Source: Bradyrhizobium sp. CCGB01
GTDB lineage: Bacteria > Pseudomonadota > Alphaproteobacteria > Rhizobiales > Xanthobacteraceae
Direction: 5' to 3'
NCBI RefSeq assembly: GCF_024199795.1
Contig: NZ_JANADK010000001.1
Location: 868,001 to 932,000 of the forward strand
DNA length: 64,000 nt
A program made the translations under genes and the position numbers. The notes under the pieces were generated by a model that ran no database searches, was not told the origin of the DNA, and saw only the letters and a program-made list of their open reading frames with translations. Shown one piece after another: positions 4,022 through 12,887 of the stretch (within the stretch, counting starts at the first letter, position 1; every line of letters begins with the position of its first letter).

Positions 4022-4396
4022 ATGGCCAAGCGCATCCTCGCGATCGGCATCGAACCCGGCAATGCGGACTACAGCGCGTTCCCGCAGCTCACGCCGGAGC
4101 TGGTGCGCGATTACATCGAGGCGCAATTGCTGCGCCTGCGCGATCTCGGCTACGAGGTCACGAGCTGCCTGATCGATCTCGACGTCACCGCGGAAGCCGG
4201 CGTCACGGCGGCGCTGCGCGAGGAGAGCTTCGACTGCATCGTGATCGGCGCGGGCCTGCGCGAGCCGAAGGAGCGCCTGCTGCTGTTCGAGAAGGTGCTC
4301 AACCTCGTCCACCGCCTGGCGCCTGACGCCGCGATCTGCTTCAACACCACGCCGGCCGACACGGCCGAGGCCGTGCAACGCTGGATCGATTCCTGA
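4022..4396 (+). CDS. Conserved hypothetical protein, 124 aa
   Basis: A small soluble protein with alternating beta strands and helices: KRILAIGIEP, then a long helix with RDYIEAQLLRLRDLGYEV, a second strand FDCIVIGAG, and an end with ICFNTTPADTAEAVQRWID. The layout resembles a Rossmann-like or response-regulator-like alpha/beta domain but no catalytic motif is visible. I recall similar small proteins in Bradyrhizobium but assign no function. The ATG is preceded by AGGAG at about 7 nt. It stands alone between the ABC operon and the protease island. Confidence 0.75.
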   Translation: MAKRILAIGIEPGNADYSAFPQLTPELVRDYIEAQLLRLRDLGYEVTSCLIDLDVTAEAGVTAALREESFDCIVIGAGLREPKERLLLFEKVLNLVHRLAPDAAICFNTTPADTAEAVQRWIDS

Positions 4397-4656
4397 TGGC
4401 GGGCGCGGTTCCGTCCTGAATTCAAATTGCCTGTCGCCGCAGCGTACGGTCTCGAAAACGGGATTGAATCGATCTGACGTTCGTGCAATTGTAGCGTGTG
4501 TTGCGACGAGATATTGCGCGTGGCGACATGCCGATATCCGAATTGTTATAAGCGGTGTTTGCTTTCGGTCGCCAAAGCGCCGGAAGCCTAATGTATTTTA
4601 AAGCGCGCGCGTCCGATGGGATGCGAGCACGTGTCTGGATGCGGGAGCAGTTCCGT
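4397..4656. promoter_or_regulatory. AT-richer upstream region of the protease/SIR2 operon
   Basis: About 260 nt, visibly lower in GC than the flanks, separate the small conserved gene from the S8 protease. It should hold the promoter of the downstream operon. No palindromic operator or clear -35/-10 pair could be assigned by eye. Confidence 0.35.
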
Positions 4657-6330
4657 ATGGTGCGCAAGAAGCCGGCGGGCGCGACAAAGGCTGATCCGGG
4701 CGATGTACGACGAGTCTTGACCAAGACTTCGATTGCGCCAGATCTGCTGGCCGTCATGGATCGCCGCACCAACAGGAAGGTCGCAAAGGCCGCTGCTGCG
4801 GAGCCGCCCACATTCAAGGTGATCATCGAATTTAACCGAGGGTTCCCGGGCGGAATCGGTGGCGCCCGGCTTGCATTGCTATGGGCTTACAGCAAGGCGC
4901 GAGGCTTGCCCGACCCTTCTGTCCAGATGAACCTTCTGCCCGCGCTCGCACCTGCTGCGTCCCGCTTCGATTCCTCGTTGATCGCCCTGTTGGAGCCCGC
5001 CGACAGCGTCGACATCGAGAAGTCGATGTGGACGGACAATTATGCTTTCGCAAAGCTCACCAGCAAGACGATCGGCAGGCTCTCGGATTGCAAGCTGCCG
5101 GACGTGACCGGTTCCCGATCGCCGCCCACGGCTCAGTCATCGTCGGCGGCGACGAAGCCGATTTCTCTAGTTTACAAGATCTGGCGGGATCACGAGATTG
5201 CGCGTTGCGTCTATGAGTCGGTACGAACGATCAAGTGCGACGCGGCACTCAACACCTTTCAGGCGAGCGGAAAGGGGATCGTCTGGGCGGTGGCAGATAC
5301 GGGAATTGACGCAACCCATCCGCATTTCCGGTCGCTCGAAACCACCAAACTACCGGATGGACTCCTGCATAAGGATTTTACGGGGCAGCATCCGAATCCC
5401 GATACGTCTCAGGCCGCAGCCCTAACCGATCAGGACGGGCATGGCACACATGTAGCCGGCATCATCGCAGGGCTGACCTGCCGCACGCAGGACAACGTGC
5501 CGGGGACTGTTACGGCAGTCACTAGGATGAGCATCAGGACGCAGATCCGCGACGGCAACGGTGACGTCAGCAAGGTCGATGTCGAGTACAAGAAGCCGAT
5601 CGCGGGATTGGCGCGCGACTGCAAGCTCGTGAGTCTGAAGGTGCTGACCAATGGCCAGTCGGGCGATCTCAGCAATCTGCTGGCCGCGCTCGGTTACATT
5701 CAGCGCTGCAACGACAACGGGCGGAGCCTGAAGATTCACGGGGTGAATCTCAGTCTCGGCTATTCGTTCGATCCCGAATGGTTTGCGGCTGGGCAGAGTC
5801 CTCTTTGTGTCGAGGTCGACCGCCTCGTGCGCTCAGGGGTTTGCGTGGTCGTGGCCGCAGGCAATGGCGGGTACGGTATCGTCAACACCCAGTCAGGGGC
5901 AGCCGAGCGTGCGGCGCATATGGGCACAATCGCGGATCCCGGCAACGCGAACCTTGCCATCACCGTGGGATCGACCCATCGCGACATGCCGCACTCGTTC
6001 GGCGTTTCGTTCTTCTCGGCCAAGGGCCCAACCTCGGACGGACGGATGAAGCCCGATCTGGTCGCGCCGGGCGAGCGCATTATCTCCTGCGCCTTGATGA
6101 ACAACGCTGCCGCGACTGAGGCATTGTTTCGCGAGGATTCCGGAACCAGCATGGCTGCTCCCCACGTCTCTGGGGCGATCGCGGCCTTCCTGTCGGTCCG
6201 CAACGAATTCCTGGGGCGGCCCGAACAGGTGAAGGAAATCTTCGTGGCGGCGGCGACCAACATCAAGCGGCGGCCCGAATTTCAGGGGGCCGGTCTGCTC
6301 GATCTGCTGCGCGCTTTGCAGTCCGTCTAG
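4657..6330 (+). CDS. S8 family serine peptidase (subtilisin-like), cytoplasmic
   Basis: A 557-residue subtilase. The catalytic triad is visible: Asp near residue 214 in AVADTGIDATHPHF, His near 262 in DGHGTHVAGI, and Ser near 498 in GTSMAAPHVSGA; the oxyanion Asn is in VVAAGNGGYG. About 200 residues precede the catalytic domain and contain no signal peptide or membrane segment, so the enzyme should act inside the cell or be held inactive by its N-terminus. I chose the ATG at 4657, which has GGGAG 9 nt upstream; the frame stays open to 4555. It is the first gene of an operon, with the hydrolase 11 nt downstream. Cytoplasmic subtilases next to nucleotide-sensing proteins can be defence effectors; that role is inference. 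Confidence 0.88.
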   Translation: MVRKKPAGATKADPGDVRRVLTKTSIAPDLLAVMDRRTNRKVAKAAAAEPPTFKVIIEFNRGFPGGIGGARLALLWAYSKARGLPDPSVQMNLLPALAPAASRFDSSLIALLEPADSVDIEKSMWTDNYAFAKLTSKTIGRLSDCKLPDVTGSRSPPTAQSSSAATKPISLVYKIWRDHEIARCVYESVRTIKCDAALNTFQASGKGIVWAVADTGIDATHPHFRSLETTKLPDGLLHKDFTGQHPNPDTSQAAALTDQDGHGTHVAGIIAGLTCRTQDNVPGTVTAVTRMSIRTQIRDGNGDVSKVDVEYKKPIAGLARDCKLVSLKVLTNGQSGDLSNLLAALGYIQRCNDNGRSLKIHGVNLSLGYSFDPEWFAAGQSPLCVEVDRLVRSGVCVVVAAGNGGYGIVNTQSGAAERAAHMGTIADPGNANLAITVGSTHRDMPHSFGVSFFSAKGPTSDGRMKPDLVAPGERIISCALMNNAAATEALFREDSGTSMAAPHVSGAIAAFLSVRNEFLGRPEQVKEIFVAAATNIKRRPEFQGAGLLDLLRALQSV

Positions 6331-6341
6331 GGAGGACGCCC

Positions 6342-7655
6342 ATGAGTGATGTTCCGTCGATTTGGCTGGAGTTTGACGAGGATGGCGCCATTGATGCGGG
6401 CGTCGTAGGGCCGCTCACGGCGCTGCTCAGCAAGCCGGGAATCGAGGACCTGGTGGTGATGTCCCACGGCTGGAAGAACGACAGGAACGATGCGACCAAG
6501 TTGTACGGTACACTCTGGGCCAATGCCCGCAGCAATTTGCCGGCTGGCCGGGCGGACAAGGTCGTTGTCGCGGGCGTGCTGTGGCCAGCCAAGGCTTTTC
6601 AAACCGACTTCGATGCCGCGGCGCTAACTGATGTCGGTACGCAAGGCACGCTGTCCGCCTCCGGAGGCCCTCCGGTTTCAGATTTGTCGCAGCAGGAGTT
6701 CGATGCGCTATTGACGGACTTCGCCGCTTTCCTGGGGCCGTCTGCGACGCAGACGATCGCAGCCGCGCGCGTTGCTGCCCAGCAGTTGGATGCCGGCGCC
6801 TCCCGTGACCTTGTCAAGCAAGCCGCAGCAGCAGTGAAGATAGATGCGAGTTCATCCGACAAGGAACTTCGGGGCGACGCAACCCGGATCGCGCGCGCCG
6901 TCGCCGATCGTAGCGAAGCACAGTTTCTGCTCGCCAGCCTTGCCACGCCGCCCGTGCTGAAGCTCACCCCGAAAGTCGGCAGTGCCATGGGCCTCGGCAG
7001 CGCCGTGCATGGCTTTTTCAACGGCGCGCGCGCGGCCGTCGGCCGCTTCCTCAACCAGCTCACCTATTATGAGATGAAAAAGCGTGCTGGCGTCGTCGGC
7101 GTCAGCCTCGCCGCCAACGTTCTTGGAAAGCTCACGCCCTCGCATGCCATTCGGCTGCATCTGGTCGGCCACAGCTTTGGTGGGCGATTGGTCACGGCGG
7201 CAGCCAATCGATGGGATGCGGTTCCGAACCTGGAGCTGTTTTCGCTCACGATCCTCCAGGGTGCCTATTCCCACAATGCCCTGTCCCATCAGGTCGCGGG
7301 GGCATTTCCGAAGGTGGTCGGCAAGCCCACGGGCCCGATCGTGTTCACGCACACCCACAACGACCTTGCCTGTACGCTCGCCTATGCGATCGCATCGCGG
7401 TTTTCCCGTGACACCACCCAGGGCGTCGGAGATGCAAGCGACGAGTTCGGCGCGATGGGTGCAAATGGGCCTCAGAAGCTCGAGCCGGGCGCCAGCGAGC
7501 CCGACAACGTCACCCAGATATTCGCGCCCAAGCGAGGCAAGATCAATACGTTCCTGGCCGACCAATACATCATCAAGACCAGCGAAACGGACGCTCACAA
7601 CAACATCACCAATGCGGTCGTCGGGAAACTTCTGGCCAGTGTCATCCAGGCATGA
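6342..7655 (+). CDS. Alpha/beta-fold serine hydrolase
   Basis: A 437-residue protein. An early strand and oxyanion-type motif VVMSHGWKND (near residue 40) and a nucleophile elbow GHSFGGRLVT (near 275, GxSxG with Ser) show a lipase/esterase fold. Between them is an unusually long insertion (residues ~90-220) rich in Ala, Gln and Asp that may be a regulatory lid. A late HTHNDLACTLAYAIA segment may supply the catalytic His. There is no signal peptide. It lies 11 nt after the S8 protease and 58 nt before the HAD-SIR2 gene, so it belongs to the same transcript. The substrate is unknown; lipid, ester or protein are all possible. Confidence 0.75.
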   Translation: MSDVPSIWLEFDEDGAIDAGVVGPLTALLSKPGIEDLVVMSHGWKNDRNDATKLYGTLWANARSNLPAGRADKVVVAGVLWPAKAFQTDFDAAALTDVGTQGTLSASGGPPVSDLSQQEFDALLTDFAAFLGPSATQTIAAARVAAQQLDAGASRDLVKQAAAAVKIDASSSDKELRGDATRIARAVADRSEAQFLLASLATPPVLKLTPKVGSAMGLGSAVHGFFNGARAAVGRFLNQLTYYEMKKRAGVVGVSLAANVLGKLTPSHAIRLHLVGHSFGGRLVTAAANRWDAVPNLELFSLTILQGAYSHNALSHQVAGAFPKVVGKPTGPIVFTHTHNDLACTLAYAIASRFSRDTTQGVGDASDEFGAMGANGPQKLEPGASEPDNVTQIFAPKRGKINTFLADQYIIKTSETDAHNNITNAVVGKLLASVIQA

Positions 7656-7713
7656 TCGGCCGTGAGAGGTCATAGCATTTTGCGTACAGTCATTTCGCGA
7701 AGGTGCGTGTCAC

Positions 7714-9375
7714 ATGCCAATATCGCTGCGGGGTGTCATCTTTGATTTCGATGGGCCCATCTTCGACGGCCGCGCCGCAAGCCAAAAGGCGCTGGCGACG
7801 ACTTTCGATCAGTATGAGGCGGCGGTCGGACGGCCTGACATTGTGGCCAATGCGTTGCCGCTTTACGGTCCCAATGCATTGATCGCTCTTGCCTACGCCG
7901 ACCTTCCCGCTGCGACGCCGAAACTTGCGGAAATCTGCGACTTCTATCGCACGACGCTGAAGGCGTGTGAACGTCAGGGCAAGGTCGTCAGCGGGGTTCA
8001 GCCGCTCCTTCAGAATCTCAGGGGGCGTGACATCAAATGCGCGATACTCTCCTCGCGCGCGACGGCCGATGTCATCGAACTGGTAACCCATCTCGGTCTG
8101 CACGTCGCCCTCGATGAGATCTGGGGAAGGGATGCGCCGTTGGGCCAAAAGCCGGATCCTGCGGCGGTTCGGGCCCTGGCCAGGAAGTTGAACGTCGCGC
8201 CGAATGAGCTGGTCTACATTGGCGATTCGGATCGCGACTACGACGTCACCAAAGGCACCGACGTCGCTTACTACCACGCCGCCTGGACGGGCGAGCCGAG
8301 CAGTCGAGCCTACACCGGCTGTCGTGCCTTGCTACGCAATGTTGCCGATCTCGAGGCTGTTCTTCGCGACACGCCTTCCCCACAACTCGGGTCGCATCGG
8401 AACATGCCATCTACTCTGAAGGACGCTATCCGTGTCGATCGACTGGTGTTCTATGCCGGCGCCGGGGTATCCGTCCAATCTGGCATCGGTGGTTGGAATG
8501 ATCATTACTCTCCTATCCTGCAAAAGTTGAAAATGAGCCTGTGGGCGGGTCAAACGACCTACAGCCTGCCGCAACTGCTTCAATTGGTCGCCGCCGAACC
8601 GGCGCGGTCGCAGGATGTCTATGAGCACTTCAAGCAGAGCTTTGCGCAACGCAAGAATAAGCGACCGAATGCCTATCACTATGCGATGATGCGGTCGGGC
8701 GCGTCCCGGATATGGACCACCAACTACGATCAGTTGTTCGAAGCCGCGCTGGCAAGCGGGAATTTCCCGCACTCCGTCGTGAGGGACGATGGCTCTCTGC
8801 TGGACAACTTTGCCAACAGCCGCCTGATAGTCAAGATGAACGGAGACTTCGAGAACTCGAGATACTCGATTGATCTCGAATGGGATATCGTTTTCCTGGA
8901 GCAGCAGTTCGATCTGGCTGAACGCCACCGCCGGGAGATATGGCGCTTGTTCGAAGACGATTACCGCAGCAGTTGCATGGTGTTCGTCGGCACCTCTTTC
9001 ACCGACCCGGCCTTGCGTCGCCTTCTGTCCAGCGCGGCCAAGGCGGTTCCACGTACCCGTTTCTGGCACCACCTTCTAGTGAAGGCGGCTGAGCATCCTG
9101 CCGACCGCATCGTTGAGGCCATGTATGTCGAGAATCTGAGACGCATGCGGATCGAGACGCACCTCTTCAAGGACTATCCCGACATCGAGCGCTGGGTGCG
9201 GCAGATCGCCGTGATCGCAAACAGGCCGATTGTGGGGTTCAGCGGCACCGCCAAGCAGGAGGACCGCGTGCTGGTGCCGGATGGTGTCCTCGAAGACGGA
9301 ACAATCAAGACGTCCGCATCGAGACGCTATGTGAGCGGATGGGACGCGCTCTGGCACGGCGCGACTTCCGGGTGA
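7714..9375 (+). CDS. HAD hydrolase-SIR2 fusion protein
   Basis: A 553-residue fusion. Residues 1-220 are a HAD phosphatase: VIFDFDGP (nucleophile Asp11), AILSSRAT, GQKPDP and YIGDSDRDYD, all four motifs present. From about residue 231 a SIR2-like NAD-binding domain follows: FYAGAGVSVQSGI, WTTNYDQLFEAAL and FVGTSFTDPALRRLL. The usual KLHGD catalytic histidine is replaced by Asn in VKMNGDFE, which is odd for an NADase. The C-terminus starts a third domain (IVGFSGTA, then a strand) but the frame ends at ATSG. The SLOG sequence continues in the +3 frame from 9339, so this gene and the next are probably one gene split by a one-base deletion near 9331-9340. Confidence 0.85.
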   Translation: MPISLRGVIFDFDGPIFDGRAASQKALATTFDQYEAAVGRPDIVANALPLYGPNALIALAYADLPAATPKLAEICDFYRTTLKACERQGKVVSGVQPLLQNLRGRDIKCAILSSRATADVIELVTHLGLHVALDEIWGRDAPLGQKPDPAAVRALARKLNVAPNELVYIGDSDRDYDVTKGTDVAYYHAAWTGEPSSRAYTGCRALLRNVADLEAVLRDTPSPQLGSHRNMPSTLKDAIRVDRLVFYAGAGVSVQSGIGGWNDHYSPILQKLKMSLWAGQTTYSLPQLLQLVAAEPARSQDVYEHFKQSFAQRKNKRPNAYHYAMMRSGASRIWTTNYDQLFEAALASGNFPHSVVRDDGSLLDNFANSRLIVKMNGDFENSRYSIDLEWDIVFLEQQFDLAERHRREIWRLFEDDYRSSCMVFVGTSFTDPALRRLLSSAAKAVPRTRFWHHLLVKAAEHPADRIVEAMYVENLRRMRIETHLFKDYPDIERWVRQIAVIANRPIVGFSGTAKQEDRVLVPDGVLEDGTIKTSASRRYVSGWDALWHGATSG

Positions 9376-9938
9376 CATCCGGCCATGGCCCCGGAGTGGG
9401 AGTTCCCGTGGTCGAGGCGGCCTTCAAGGAAAATGCGAGTACGGCGCGCTTCTACTTGCGCAAACGTGGCAGAAGCCAATTCAGCCGCACCGCTCCCGCG
9501 GTGGTGGTGTCTGAGGACGATGGCGTTCCTGGCGGAGATTTTGGCCGCATGCGGGAACGATTTGTTAGCGAGCTCGACATCCTCGTCGCCATCGGCGGAC
9601 CATCGCGCGAGGAAGGAGAATCCGGGACGTTGAACGAGATCAACATGGCCCTGGCACGGTCGATTCCGGTCGTCATTCTCAAGCAGGCGGGCGGAAGCGC
9701 TGCGCGGCGTAAAGCGGAGATGATGCAAAACCTGAGCGTGACATATTCCGATCCGGAGGTCGCCAAACTGGTCCGAAAAGTCAACGAGGATCTCGATGCG
9801 GTCACCGCCGAGGCGTTGCCGGCCTATGTCGACAGCATACTCGTCGATCAAATCGAGGATCTGGTCGCGGTCTCTATCGGCAGCGAGACTCGTCGCGCCG
9901 CCGATGGCGACGACATCGTCGCTCAGCGGAGATGGTGA
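9339..9938 (+). CDS. SLOG (LOG-like nucleotide sensor) domain, probably the frameshifted C-terminus of the HAD-SIR2 protein
   Basis: A 199-residue frame beginning LARRDFRVTSGHGPGVGV, the glycine-rich nucleotide loop of SLOG/LOG proteins. A second motif IAIGGPSREEG...SGTLNEI corresponds to the GG...GT..E active-site signature. In ThsA of Thoeris a C-terminal SLOG binds a cyclic ADP-ribose signal and activates the SIR2 NADase. Here SIR2 and SLOG are adjacent in the same order. The start of this frame overlaps the end of the HAD-SIR2 frame by 37 nt, and the SLOG first strand (IVGFSGTA) is left behind in the other frame, which argues for a frameshift rather than two native proteins. Confidence 0.7.
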   Translation: MGRALARRDFRVTSGHGPGVGVPVVEAAFKENASTARFYLRKRGRSQFSRTAPAVVVSEDDGVPGGDFGRMRERFVSELDILVAIGGPSREEGESGTLNEINMALARSIPVVILKQAGGSAARRKAEMMQNLSVTYSDPEVAKLVRKVNEDLDAVTAEALPAYVDSILVDQIEDLVAVSIGSETRRAADGDDIVAQRRW

Positions 9939-10798
9939 TGTCCGAGCCGGCGCGGAGTGAGCTCATTGGCATGATCGCCGATCTCAAGGACTGGCTTCGT
10001 GCCTACGCGATGCATCCGGCGTGCGTCGACGTGGCTTTCATTGGAAACACCAGCGGTCATTATCCATCGACGCCTGGACTGATGGTGGATTTCGACGCCT
10101 TTGTTTTCGTTGCAGAGATGAATTCTGCCGCCGGTCAGCCCATCGCGGCGCTGCGCGAAAGATGGACGGACGCCTGCCACGCGCGAGCGATCGATTTCGA
10201 GCTGCGTATTGTCGAAGGTCCCTATAAGCCGCCCCTTGCGATTCTGCGCCGGCCGGTCCTTGTGGTTCATCTCGGTGTCTTCACCGAGTCGCTTTATCTC
10301 GCCGCGGCGCCGCTCAAGCGCTGGGCGTGGCGAAAATACATCTGCGAGCGCGAGCCGGGACGTTTGGCCCGCATGGCACCCCCACGGCCGACGCTTGCCG
10401 AGTTCATCACCGGCCCAAAGGGGCTGCGCGAGCGATGCGAGGCGATCGAGGCCGGTGCCGTGGAGATGACGGAATGGCTGCTGCCCGATTTGCAAGCCAG
10501 ATCCTTCGTCATCACGCTGGATGAAGCCAACTTCGTCGAATGTTGCTTCGCCTATGCAGCCAATACGGCACGGAATCACGCCCGGACGCTCGGCATGGGT
10601 GAAGCCGATCAGCTTCCAAATTCCGAGTTTTTCTCCTGGTACGACCAAACGGTCCTTCGCTCTCCCGAGCTTGTCGATCTGATGAACCACAAGGCCGCTT
10701 GCAGAGATCAAGGCTTTGTCGTGGAGATCGCGCATGCACGCAGGCTCGCCCTCCGTTACATGAGGGCGTTGGAGCGGCATCTGGCTCAAATTAGTTAG
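9938..10798 (+). CDS. Nucleotidyltransferase-fold-like protein
   Basis: A 286-residue protein not assignable to a named family by eye. Residues 35-53 read IGNTSGHYPSTPGLMVDFD, which fits the minimal nucleotidyltransferase pattern of a small-residue loop followed by DxD (Asp51, Asp53). The rest is mostly helical with a Cys pair in NFVECCFAYAA and a Tyr/Arg-rich C-terminus. I chose ATG 9938, which overlaps the SLOG stop (TGATG) and has GGAGA at about 6 nt; ATG 9932 is the alternative. It could make or modify a nucleotide signal, or be the nucleotidyltransferase half of a toxin-antitoxin-like pair. Function is inference. Confidence 0.7.
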   Translation: MSEPARSELIGMIADLKDWLRAYAMHPACVDVAFIGNTSGHYPSTPGLMVDFDAFVFVAEMNSAAGQPIAALRERWTDACHARAIDFELRIVEGPYKPPLAILRRPVLVVHLGVFTESLYLAAAPLKRWAWRKYICEREPGRLARMAPPRPTLAEFITGPKGLRERCEAIEAGAVEMTEWLLPDLQARSFVITLDEANFVECCFAYAANTARNHARTLGMGEADQLPNSEFFSWYDQTVLRSPELVDLMNHKAACRDQGFVVEIAHARRLALRYMRALERHLAQIS

Positions 10799-10905
10799 CC
10801 GGCATTGTTCCGTTGAGGAGAGGCGATTCAACCGTCCATTGGTGATTATTCTGGTTTGAATGGCCAGCGGCGTCTATGATGGCTGACCAGATGGGAGAGT
10901 TACAA

Positions 10906-11211
10906 ATGCTTCGAGGTCTTGGAATCGCGGCGTGTCTGACGGTTGCGATGACAATGCCGGCGCATGAGGCCGCGGCCCAGGATGCCATCGGCGGTGCGAT
11001 CATCGGCGGTGTCGGCGGGGCAATCCTCGGCGGCGCGCTCGGCGGTGGACGTGGCGCCGCAATCGGTGCCGTCGTCGGTGCCGGCACCGGCGCTGCAATC
11101 GCCTCCGAGGGCGAGCGCCGCCGCTCCGGTTATTACGCCTATCAGCGCGGCTGCTACATGCAGCGCCCCGACGGCTACTACGTCCGGGTCGATCACAGGT
11201 ATTGCTACTGA
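10906..11211 (+). CDS. Small secreted glycine-zipper protein
   Basis: A 101-residue protein with a signal peptide (AACLTVAMTMPA, cleavage near AAAQ). A glycine-zipper region follows, with repeats of GGAIIGGVGGAILGG, which usually packs in or across the outer membrane. The tail is Tyr- and Arg-rich with two Cys (GCYMQRPDGYY, HRYCY). The ATG at 10906 has GGGAGAG 7 nt upstream, deciding the start. Such short proteins are frequent in Rhizobiales envelopes and have no defined activity. Confidence 0.8.
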   Translation: MLRGLGIAACLTVAMTMPAHEAAAQDAIGGAIIGGVGGAILGGALGGGRGAAIGAVVGAGTGAAIASEGERRRSGYYAYQRGCYMQRPDGYYVRVDHRYCY

Positions 11212-11251
11212 AGCCCGGAAGCGCCGTCGCGCCTTAGCTCTTGCCTGCCGG

Positions 11252-12022
11252 CTAAGGCATGATCTGGAGCAGCGCCTCCGGCTTGATCGAGACCTCGCCG
11301 GCGAACGGCCGGTCATGCGCGGCGATCAGCAGGACCGAGGTGGCGACGCCGGTCGCGAACAGGCCCATCGCGATCGCCGATCCCAGCCGGTTGTCGCAAT
11401 GAACGAGGCCGATCACCAGCAGCGCACAGGCGGCCTGGAGGTAGAGGCACCACCATTTGACCGGGTTCACCGCGGCGAGGCTGACGATGATCCGCTGCCG
11501 CCGCGCATCCAGCGCCTGCTCCAGCGCCGCGATGAGCTCGCGCTGCACATTCGCCTGACCCGGGCCTTGCGGCGTCATAGAGACGACGAGCTGCAGGGCC
11601 TCGGCGAGCGCGGGCGGCGTGGCCTTCAGCGACACCTGCTGATGTGCCATCATCGGCCATTCCACCGCCACGGCCTGCCCGACATAGTCGCGGACCAGGC
11701 CGCGCAGCTTTGTCTCCTGCTCCGCCGGCAAGCCGGCGGCCAGCAGCACGGCACTGCGCAGCGCGCTCGCCTCGCGGCTCACCGCGGCGCTGGCGCGGTC
11801 GCTGTCGCCCCAGACCTGCGCCGCGGTAAAGGCGACGAACAGGCCGAAGATGATGCCGAGCACCGGCAGCATGCCCGGCGAGATCGCCTTCAGCGATTTC
11901 GCGCGCTCTCCCGTCGCGGCCATCGCAACGCCTGCGAAGATGGCCGCGGTCAGAAGGTAGGTGAATCCGAAGATCACCAGCGCCATCACGGGCACGGGCA
12001 GATTGTGCAGCCAGTCGCTCAT
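11252..12022 (-). CDS. DUF4239 (bestrophin-like) membrane protein
   Basis: A 256-residue inner-membrane protein. Two N-terminal helices (VMALVIFGFTYLLTAAIF and VLGIIFGLFVAFTAAQVW), a soluble central part of about 110 residues, and two C-terminal helices (LYLQAACALLVIGLVH and AIAMGLFATGVATSVLLI) match the DUF4239 topology. No enzymatic motif is seen. It is convergent with the glycine-zipper gene and lies directly before the radC remnant. Confidence 0.8.
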   Translation of the reverse strand: MSDWLHNLPVPVMALVIFGFTYLLTAAIFAGVAMAATGERAKSLKAISPGMLPVLGIIFGLFVAFTAAQVWGDSDRASAAVSREASALRSAVLLAAGLPAEQETKLRGLVRDYVGQAVAVEWPMMAHQQVSLKATPPALAEALQLVVSMTPQGPGQANVQRELIAALEQALDARRQRIIVSLAAVNPVKWWCLYLQAACALLVIGLVHCDNRLGSAIAMGLFATGVATSVLLIAAHDRPFAGEVSIKPEALLQIMP

Positions 12023-12317: not shown

Positions 12318-12548
12318 TCACGCTTGATCACTCCTATGCTCGCCGCGTCCCTTGGATGCACGGCACTGCACCTTATTCTTTTCATCCCACGCATCAAGCT
12401 CGTCGAGCGGGTAGAGCACAGCCTTGCCAATTTTGACGAAGGACGGGCCGAGACGCATCGCGCGCCAATTTCGAAGCGTCCCAACCGAAATACCGCCCCG
12501 GTAGCGTTCAGCCACCTCGTCAGGCGTAAGGAATTTGCTGTCTGCCAC
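12318..12548 (-). CDS. AlpA/excisionase-like helix-turn-helix protein
   Basis: A 76-residue DNA-binding protein: LTPDEVAERYRGGISVGTLRNW forms the winged helix-turn-helix, followed by the wing FVKIGKAVLYPLDELDAW. The GTG at 12548 is chosen because AAGGAGG lies 5 nt upstream. Proteins of this type regulate excision of integrated islands or prophages. It sits between the broken radC and the tRNA fragment, so it is probably the last gene of an older integrated element whose integrase is gone. Confidence 0.75.
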   Translation of the reverse strand: MADSKFLTPDEVAERYRGGISVGTLRNWRAMRLGPSFVKIGKAVLYPLDELDAWDEKNKVQCRASKGRGEHRSDQA

Positions 12549-12887
12549 TACCGCCTCCTTTGGCAGCACGACCAAAGCCGTGTCGCCGCGTCTTGAGTTG
12601 AATATCGCGGTAGTCTGTCGAGGTTCGCTTCGGGTCTTTATTTCACGCGCCCAGGCCCGGGACCTCACGCTTCCGCACGGACATACATGCTGCGCAATTC
12701 ACCGCCGCGAAAGACGTCAGAGGCAGGAGTCGTAGAAACGGATACCATAGAGGCCACATAGGCGGGGTGACTGCGCCTCCTTTCGTCGACCGTGCTAGGT
12801 GCCGGACAGGTGCTGCGCCACGGGTATGTGGACGATTTCCGTCACGAGTTTGAGGGGGGCGTTCGGGCGCGGAAAGACACGACAGAC
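12549..12887. other. Intergenic/left-end DNA without a supported gene
   Basis: About 340 nt between the helix-turn-helix gene and the tRNA fragment. No open frame shows a known family, and I see no integrase or transposase remains in any frame. It is probably leftover sequence of the insertion that disrupted radC. Confidence 0.45.

Follow-up and report, generated by a model that had tools for sequence, protein, structure and literature searches.

Type I Thoeris combines ThsA, in which a SIR2 domain is followed by a SLOG domain, with the TIR protein ThsB. In ThsA, 3'cADPR is coordinated by R371, K388 and E403 (PMC10022894), and each of the exchanges N112A and H152A abolished NAD cleavage, with H152A also disturbing the oligomers (PMC7272460). 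Here we describe a locus of Bradyrhizobium sp. CCGB01, contained in a stretch of 64,000 nucleotides (the window, whose numbering is used for positions below) on a single-contig genome of 9.3 Mb. It holds a gene of a family that encodes ThsA-like SIR2-SLOG proteins with a HAD phosphatase domain fused in front, split into two frames in this strain, followed by a gene for NT5, a member of an orphan protein family. From homology and distribution we suggest, at somewhat less than an even chance, that these two genes form the core of a Thoeris-like nucleotide-signalling defence unit, in which the HAD domain would be the effector and NT5 the signal-maker.

The HAD-SIR2 frame was searched against a protein database, the 8000 candidates sharing most words with it being scored, and returned 62 proteins, 49 of which are 662-754 amino acids (aa) long. 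In the 39 of the 62 that were picked by length and aligned (residue numbers are those of P0002), HAD, SIR2 and SLOG are continuous in a single protein of about 735 aa. The family profile matched the solved ThsA chains 6lhx, 8bto and 8wc0 with E-values of 1.8e-33 to 3e-29, and the "USG protein" 7uxt with 3.3e-38, each time over SIR2 and SLOG, and the intact protein of the Bradyrhizobium relative L004 matches the PADLOC model of ThsA at 4.7e-37. The SIR2-then-SLOG order, which an initial annotation of the window had likened to ThsA, is thus a right and strong comparison that extends across both domains. The equivalents of R371 and E403 (R615 and E643, lined up by eye) are invariant and that of K388 is variable; this conservation cannot tell the ligand, because Arg371 and Glu403 are named as conserved across the STALD family at large (PMC7272460).

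What distinguishes the fused proteins is the position of the catalytic histidine. The ThsA motif KMHGD, which contains His152, aligns to KMNGD in this family, with asparagine at that position in 39/39 aligned fused proteins and also in two proteins linked to TIR genes. Among 88 SIR2 open reading frames (ORFs) taken from loci L003-L089, L141 and L142 (the best 80 of 177 candidate genome stretches, 7 viral loci and two genus members), asparagine occurs in 6/6 HAD-fused and histidine in 82/82 unfused ORFs; four of the six duplicate, exactly or nearly, proteins already counted among the 39. Since the catalytic histidine is replaced in every fused protein examined, NAD cleavage by the SIR2 domain, to which the initial annotation had pointed by way of ThsA, is doubtful. 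The equivalent of ThsA Asn112 (N337) and G249, G251 and S253 of the GAG..S motif are nevertheless kept in 39/39, as if NAD were still bound, and the ThsA authors allow that the inactivity of H152A may come from lost oligomers (PMC7272460). The sirtuin domain could on these grounds still be an effector NADase despite its asparagine, with the fused HAD turning the response off by dephosphorylating or removing the signal or a product; the uniform asparagine of the fused proteins against the uniform histidine of their unfused relatives makes this unlikely. The PDB also holds, beside plain KomC, a KomC(H146N) that is by name engineered, which would speak against it as well if H146, unchecked here, is the same position. 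Two Bradyrhizobium genomes (G201, locus L141; G018, locus L142) carry an unfused SIR2(-SLOG) protein with the catalytic histidine kept, possibly ordinary Thoeris. The 7 loci on viral contigs all match from residue 246 or 247 onward, none with HAD, and plasmid records gave 49 partial matches to HAD-SIR2-SLOG, none covering over 80% of the query.

HAD motifs I-IV are present in the aligned family, with D13, R115, D171 and D175 in 39/39, D11 and K146 in 38/39, and position 113 being Ser or Thr in 39/39, and the active site looks intact and active. Because it is intact while the sirtuin histidine is replaced by asparagine, HAD seems the likelier effector of the two domains. A precedent exists in the Chp (CARF-HAD) proteins, known effectors that dephosphorylate ATP, dATP and IMP (PMC12715507). 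The best NCBIfam scores of the HAD part went to phosphoglycolate-phosphatase-like and similar models, all listed ones being below cut-off. Such a likeness would suit a role in metabolism or stress, acting on phosphates of nucleotides or sugars, instead of defence, as would the lack of known defence neighbours in a family scan that covered three flanking genes only. The ThsA homology, together with the TIR alternative, the rarity in the genus and the presence/absence pattern described below, renders a non-defence role improbable.

The second gene of the proposed core is tied to the first well beyond Bradyrhizobium. NT5 is the next gene after HAD-SIR2-SLOG, in the same orientation, in the Bradyrhizobium genomes of L003 and L004, in L005 (Terriglobia, Acidobacteriota) and in L008 (Myxococcales, Myxococcota), the NT5 proteins of L005 and L008 each being 45% identical to that of the window. 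For database proteins without DNA, an identical size of the longest contig served as a proxy that shows a shared contig, not adjacency: 23/62 HAD-family proteins, the window itself and L003 included, match the exact longest-contig size of one of 91 NT5-family proteins, with 0.38 expected (the average after shifting sizes by 1-30). All 23 belong to the 53/62 with contigs of at least 3100 bases (9/62 fall under this size), and from the NT5 side 23 of the 58 proteins on contigs at least that long match. The initial annotation had proposed looking for co-occurrence in other genomes; for HAD-SIR2-SLOG and NT5 it extends across phyla. L005 has in addition a second nucleotidyltransferase (NTase)-like gene (L005:9161-9970, +) directly upstream of HAD-SIR2-SLOG, NT5 lying downstream, with matches to NTP_transf_2 (2.8e-5, over the cut-off) and Polbeta (1.4e-5, just under it); a phage integrase gene adjoins this locus.

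A TIR_2 gene lies directly upstream of HAD-SIR2-SLOG in L006 (1.7e-21) and L007 (3.2e-22), overlapping it by 23 and 4 bases, respectively, when the longest ORFs are taken. These TIR proteins score best with SAVED-TIR and other TIR models and have no PADLOC ThsB match at 0.01. By locus, the partner is NT5 in the window, L003, L004 and L008, NT5 plus the second NTase-like gene in L005, and TIR in L006 and L007. In a tree of 43 rows (21 labelled; the 22 unlabelled ones include copies of both L005 and L008), the two TIR rows form one clade (support 100/100), the 19 NT5-linked rows being spread elsewhere; because the root is a midpoint, the direction of exchange between TIR and NT5 is not given by the tree. 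No TIR was found among the five genes of the window with Pfam and PADLOC, and the sole TIR_2 match in the genome is L204 (G000:C1:1961211-1961603, 2.5e-11), at 1.96 Mb and about 1.1 Mb away. The reading of the locus as signal-maker, sensor and effector, already offered in the initial annotation, gains support because NT5 is linked across phyla and TIR adjoins in one clade; what is in doubt is the sirtuin as effector.

In an 83-row alignment of NT5, D31, G36, D51, D53, G94, K97, R212, H214 and R216 are invariant, S39 occurs in 77/83 rows, and position 88 is acidic (E or D) in 82/83. The order hGN.S...DhD...h[DE]h is one that we take to be, from its general form, that of Pol-beta nucleotidyltransferases; the features G-x-S, DhD and a third acidic residue are present at motif level, and were noticed before any control. 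For CloB a similar motif is described (PMC12265719). Profile comparisons gave no counterpart to this. A PDB search with the NT5 profile returned no match at E-values of 10 or below, and 46 members searched against Pfam, PADLOC and NCBIfam returned scattered weak matches, none of them a nucleotidyltransferase, the best being PADLOC REase_II (0.0023, 2/46 members). With hhalign there was no register match to five NTase sets, which are thin (1-8 sequences each), known NTase families scoring 4-67% probability against one another. Hidden Markov models of NT5 run over 1757 ORFs of the loci retrieved, a background that included the ORFs of NTase loci themselves, placed two true NT5 genes at ranks 1-2 and the best of 19 NTases at rank 33 (core model) and 58 (whole model). 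The initial description of the last gene as nucleotidyltransferase-like therefore holds for the motif and finds no nucleotidyltransferase match in Pfam, NCBIfam, PADLOC or the PDB, and we regard NT5 as a likely but unproven nucleotidyltransferase. The family is rare, occurring in 2/397 genomes of the order and 2/60 relatives, with the window's own counted in both, and none was detected on plasmids at 0.01.

We propose that on infection NT5, a putative nucleotidyltransferase of the Pol-beta type, would make a nucleotide signal and that the SLOG domain would bind it. The sirtuin-like domain, having kept its NAD-pocket residues and lost the general base, may be a nucleotide-binding scaffold or an NAD gauge, and the HAD phosphatase, once switched on, would dephosphorylate nucleotides or another small phosphate, whereby the cell would be stopped. 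In one clade the TIR protein would do the job of NT5. Such a system would be Thoeris-like with both ends exchanged, because the sensor-effector protein is constant, its partner is TIR or NT5, and it is HAD and not the sirtuin domain whose active site is intact. With more reserve, we consider it possible that these proteins represent a branch of SLOG-sensed immunity in which the sensor was kept, the sirtuin NADase became a catalytically dead linker that binds a nucleotide when HAD was fused in front, and TIR was swapped for a nucleotidyltransferase of a new family.

In this scheme the signal would activate rather than inhibit. A restraint as in Clover would work the other way round: the nucleotide made by NT5, or AMPylation, would hold the HAD/SIR2 protein inactive until infection, formally a toxin-antitoxin pair. 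Clover is an NTase with a nucleotide hydrolase that is inhibited by the NTase product (PMC12265719), and NT5 is a frequent partner (23/62 by longest-contig size) whose sequence shows the [D/E]h[D/E]..h[D/E]h pattern given in that paper. The TIR genes adjoining in L006 and L007 argue against restraint, since the TIR product activates in SIR2-SLOG Thoeris (PMC11204291), and we find it decidedly unlikely.

Several observations weigh against a two-gene defence unit with HAD as effector. By longest-contig size, 39/62 HAD-family proteins have no NT5 match, and at the NT5 gene of Methylopila (L103:8550-10091) the 19 kb of sequence read contain no HAD-SIR2 gene. In L006 no NT5 was found in the 9.8 kb that lie downstream, nor was it in L007, whose contig stops 296 bases past the gene, so that absence there is unproven. 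NT5 has no profile similarity to known nucleotidyltransferases, and an asparagine-bearing sirtuin might still act on NAD. The argument from the HAD motifs is weakened because the toxicity of Chp did not require the conserved HAD residues (PMC12715507). Neighbours were scanned by family for three flanking genes of the window, not systematically for defence genes at the loci. Finally, the window's own HAD-SIR2-SLOG copy is broken. The Methylopila NT5 gene is divergent from one for a 165-aa membrane-like protein without a confident Pfam match.

The features of the locus in the window are as follows.

4657..6330, + strand: S8 (subtilisin-like) serine peptidase (Pfam PF00082, Peptidase_S8, 5.6e-43); module 1
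6342..7655, + strand: alpha/beta-hydrolase-like protein, partner of S8 in module 1 (Abhydrolase_1 0.16, far under cut-off)
7714..9375, + strand: HAD phosphatase domain and ThsA-like SIR2 domain, the latter with Asn where ThsA has its catalytic His (Pfam HAD_2 1.4e-21, SIR2_2 1.1e-17)
9339..9938, + strand: SLOG (STALD) domain, from the downstream part of the broken gene (Pfam STALD 2.7e-7)
9932..10798, + strand: NT5, 288 aa, orphan family with the motif hGN.S...DhD...h[DE]h (from alignment and linkage to HAD-SIR2-SLOG)
approx. 4397..10840, no strand: accessory block missing from the same site in five relatives (from flank comparison)

The initial annotation had counted five frames. HAD-SIR2 and SLOG are indeed two ORFs here, but relatives have one: an intact ORF of 742 aa lies at the same site in the Bradyrhizobium relatives L003 and L004. 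The reading frame of the window shifts near 9.3 kb, so that the ORF 7714..9375 represents the first half of the gene with its C-terminal tail out of the family frame, and the SLOG ORF begins inside the domain, matching STALD model positions 43-192 of 211 with the first ~40 domain residues missing. The idea that HAD-SIR2 and SLOG are normally two proteins was rejected, since relatives carry the fused protein. Programmed frameshifting at 9.3 kb seems less likely than mutation or sequence error, because no obvious slippery run was seen by eye at the break and relatives read through in one frame. For the stretch after the break, the ratio of nonsynonymous to synonymous substitution rates (dN/dS) is 0.30 and 0.32 between the window and relatives and 0.32 between the intact relatives, and because these values match, the break would be recent, if real, or a sequence error. 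With the effector gene broken as sequenced, the system is probably off in this strain unless the break is a sequence error.

Five + strand frames between 4657 and 10798, spaced by an 11-nucleotide gap, a 58-nucleotide gap and two overlaps, had been annotated, and their coordinates were confirmed. Pfam matches back the S8 protease, HAD-SIR2 and SLOG of that annotation, the hydrolase match staying sub-threshold, and the AT-richer DNA noted upstream is right in direction and small in effect (GC about 60% versus about 64%). The S8 frame runs from an ATG at 4657, the longest ORF opening at GTG 4555; its Asp, His and Ser motifs are visible by eye and presumably form the triad, and GHSFGG of the hydrolase-like protein is taken to be the nucleophile elbow. 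The locus appears to be more than chance, because the whole block is either there or missing at one site and dN/dS is 0.14-0.32 for all five gene stretches in all three genome pairs (the window and two relatives), that of the S8 peptidase being 0.17 against each of the two relatives.

A neighbouring-gene search matched 26/60 genus genomes, and the 19 best loci were compared with the window; they comprise the window itself, one cassette-bearing relative (L162), five loci lacking the block, L175, and 11 without the left flank in the stretch. The five (L160, L161, L163, L164 and L169) join 4384-4401 to 10840-10919 with about 100-200 bases between. L175 joins 4387 to 11256, the small next gene being missing too. 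Because five relatives join both flanks without the block, a cassette of roughly 6.4 kb is gained or lost as a unit. On the same strand, no common run of 9 bases or more was found between 4381-4680 and 10781-10930. An excisionase-like HTH_17 protein (3.4e-7) is encoded at 12318-12668 (-), ~1.5 kb downstream of the cassette, a possible trace of a mobile element. The whole HAD-SIR2-SLOG gene occurs in 3/265 genus genomes (in two pieces in the window), all three with a close hydrolase, in a scan that scored at most four candidates per genome; all 265 match the HAD-SIR2-SLOG model somehow, among the matches listed nearly always via HAD proteins alone.

The five frames had been read as one operon, a view that the distribution of the S8-hydrolase pair corrects to two modules. 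The hydrolase is matched in 11/265 genomes of the genus, and an S8 gene adjoins it in G070 and G208 (L093/L104 and L094), both without full-length HAD-SIR2-SLOG. It is also matched in 27/72,556 plasmid records, four of which were examined: on the rhizobial plasmids L200, L201 and L203 the hydrolase gene is immediately preceded, at a distance of 9 bases, by one for an S8 peptidase, and the annotation of these stretches names neither a HAD nor a SIR2 gene. Conversely, L005 and L008 have HAD-SIR2-SLOG and NT5 without a detectable S8-hydrolase pair, which was seen beside the core in three Bradyrhizobium genomes only, this one included. A single five-gene system, with S8 protease and hydrolase as extra effectors or a protease cascade, would suit the tight spacing and the presence/absence of the whole block as one unit in Bradyrhizobium; the occurrence of each part without the other leaves it a slim chance, and as an ancestral unit it was rejected on the same grounds. 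The S8-hydrolase pair forms an independent module of its own that, in Bradyrhizobium, travels in the same cassette as the core.

Some further neighbourhoods of the pair were seen. The Rhodococcus plasmid L202, the fourth examined, carries no annotation. At L104:4099-8423 (-), near the stand-alone pair of G070, lie transposase-like ORFs recognized by eye and an SMC/AAA-type ATPase gene. Six weaker hydrolase matches in other Bradyrhizobium (L095-L100) stand beside other large ORFs, the partner in L095 having no Pfam match, and this family may have partners of several kinds.

Among described systems, IetAS shares the subtilase fold of its S8 peptidase with module 1, but the block has no ATPase gene, its S8 peptidase is paired with an alpha/beta hydrolase, and in PADLOC the IetS match (2.6e-13) is far below that of the generic "subtilase" model (5.8e-51). 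CBASS likewise places a predicted NTase beside a nucleotide-sensing effector; NT5, in contrast, has no match among the CD-NTase models of Pfam and PADLOC, the five genes match no PADLOC CBASS accessory model, and no SMODS match was found in this genome. The Chp proteins of type III CRISPR resemble the core protein in that a HAD phosphatase is fused to the sensor of a nucleotide signal (PMC12715507), whereas here a SLOG domain that follows a sirtuin-like one is the sensor. Chp itself is predicted to carry four transmembrane helices. The five genes of the window have no CARF match in Pfam or PADLOC, a type III CRISPR locus not having been searched for. Clover (the dNTPase CloA and the NTase CloB) likewise consists of two genes, one for a nucleotide-hydrolase-type effector and one for an NTase-like protein (PMC12265719); it differs in that the candidate effector here is HAD and not HD, Pfam finding no HD family in any of the five genes, and that NT5 is an orphan family, set apart from CloB without sequence comparison.

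In the titles and abstract openings of the open-licence papers covered, no HAD-SIR2-SLOG protein and no pairing with NT5 was found, which is weak evidence of absence; the available parts of PMC9503650 and PMC11204291 mention neither, and "phosphatase" and "haloacid" occur 0 times in that of the latter. Type I Thoeris is matched in the SIR2-SLOG homology over both domains, in the equivalents of R371 and E403, though not in that of K388, and in the TIR gene that adjoins in one clade. It differs in lacking the HAD fused in front, in its catalytic histidine where asparagine stands here, and in its TIR protein where the window, L003, L004, L005 and L008 have NT5. With neither a TIR gene nor the catalytic histidine, the locus falls outside type I Thoeris as defined, even though its mode of action may be similar. 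If our reading is true, NT5, a family without a library match, would be the likely source of an immune nucleotide, and the natural His-to-Asn sirtuin would let NAD binding be separated from cleavage in 41 natural sequences (the 39 and the two TIR-linked proteins). Thoeris itself would then be modular at both ends around one sensor, with the enzyme that makes the messenger and the enzyme that kills each exchangeable.

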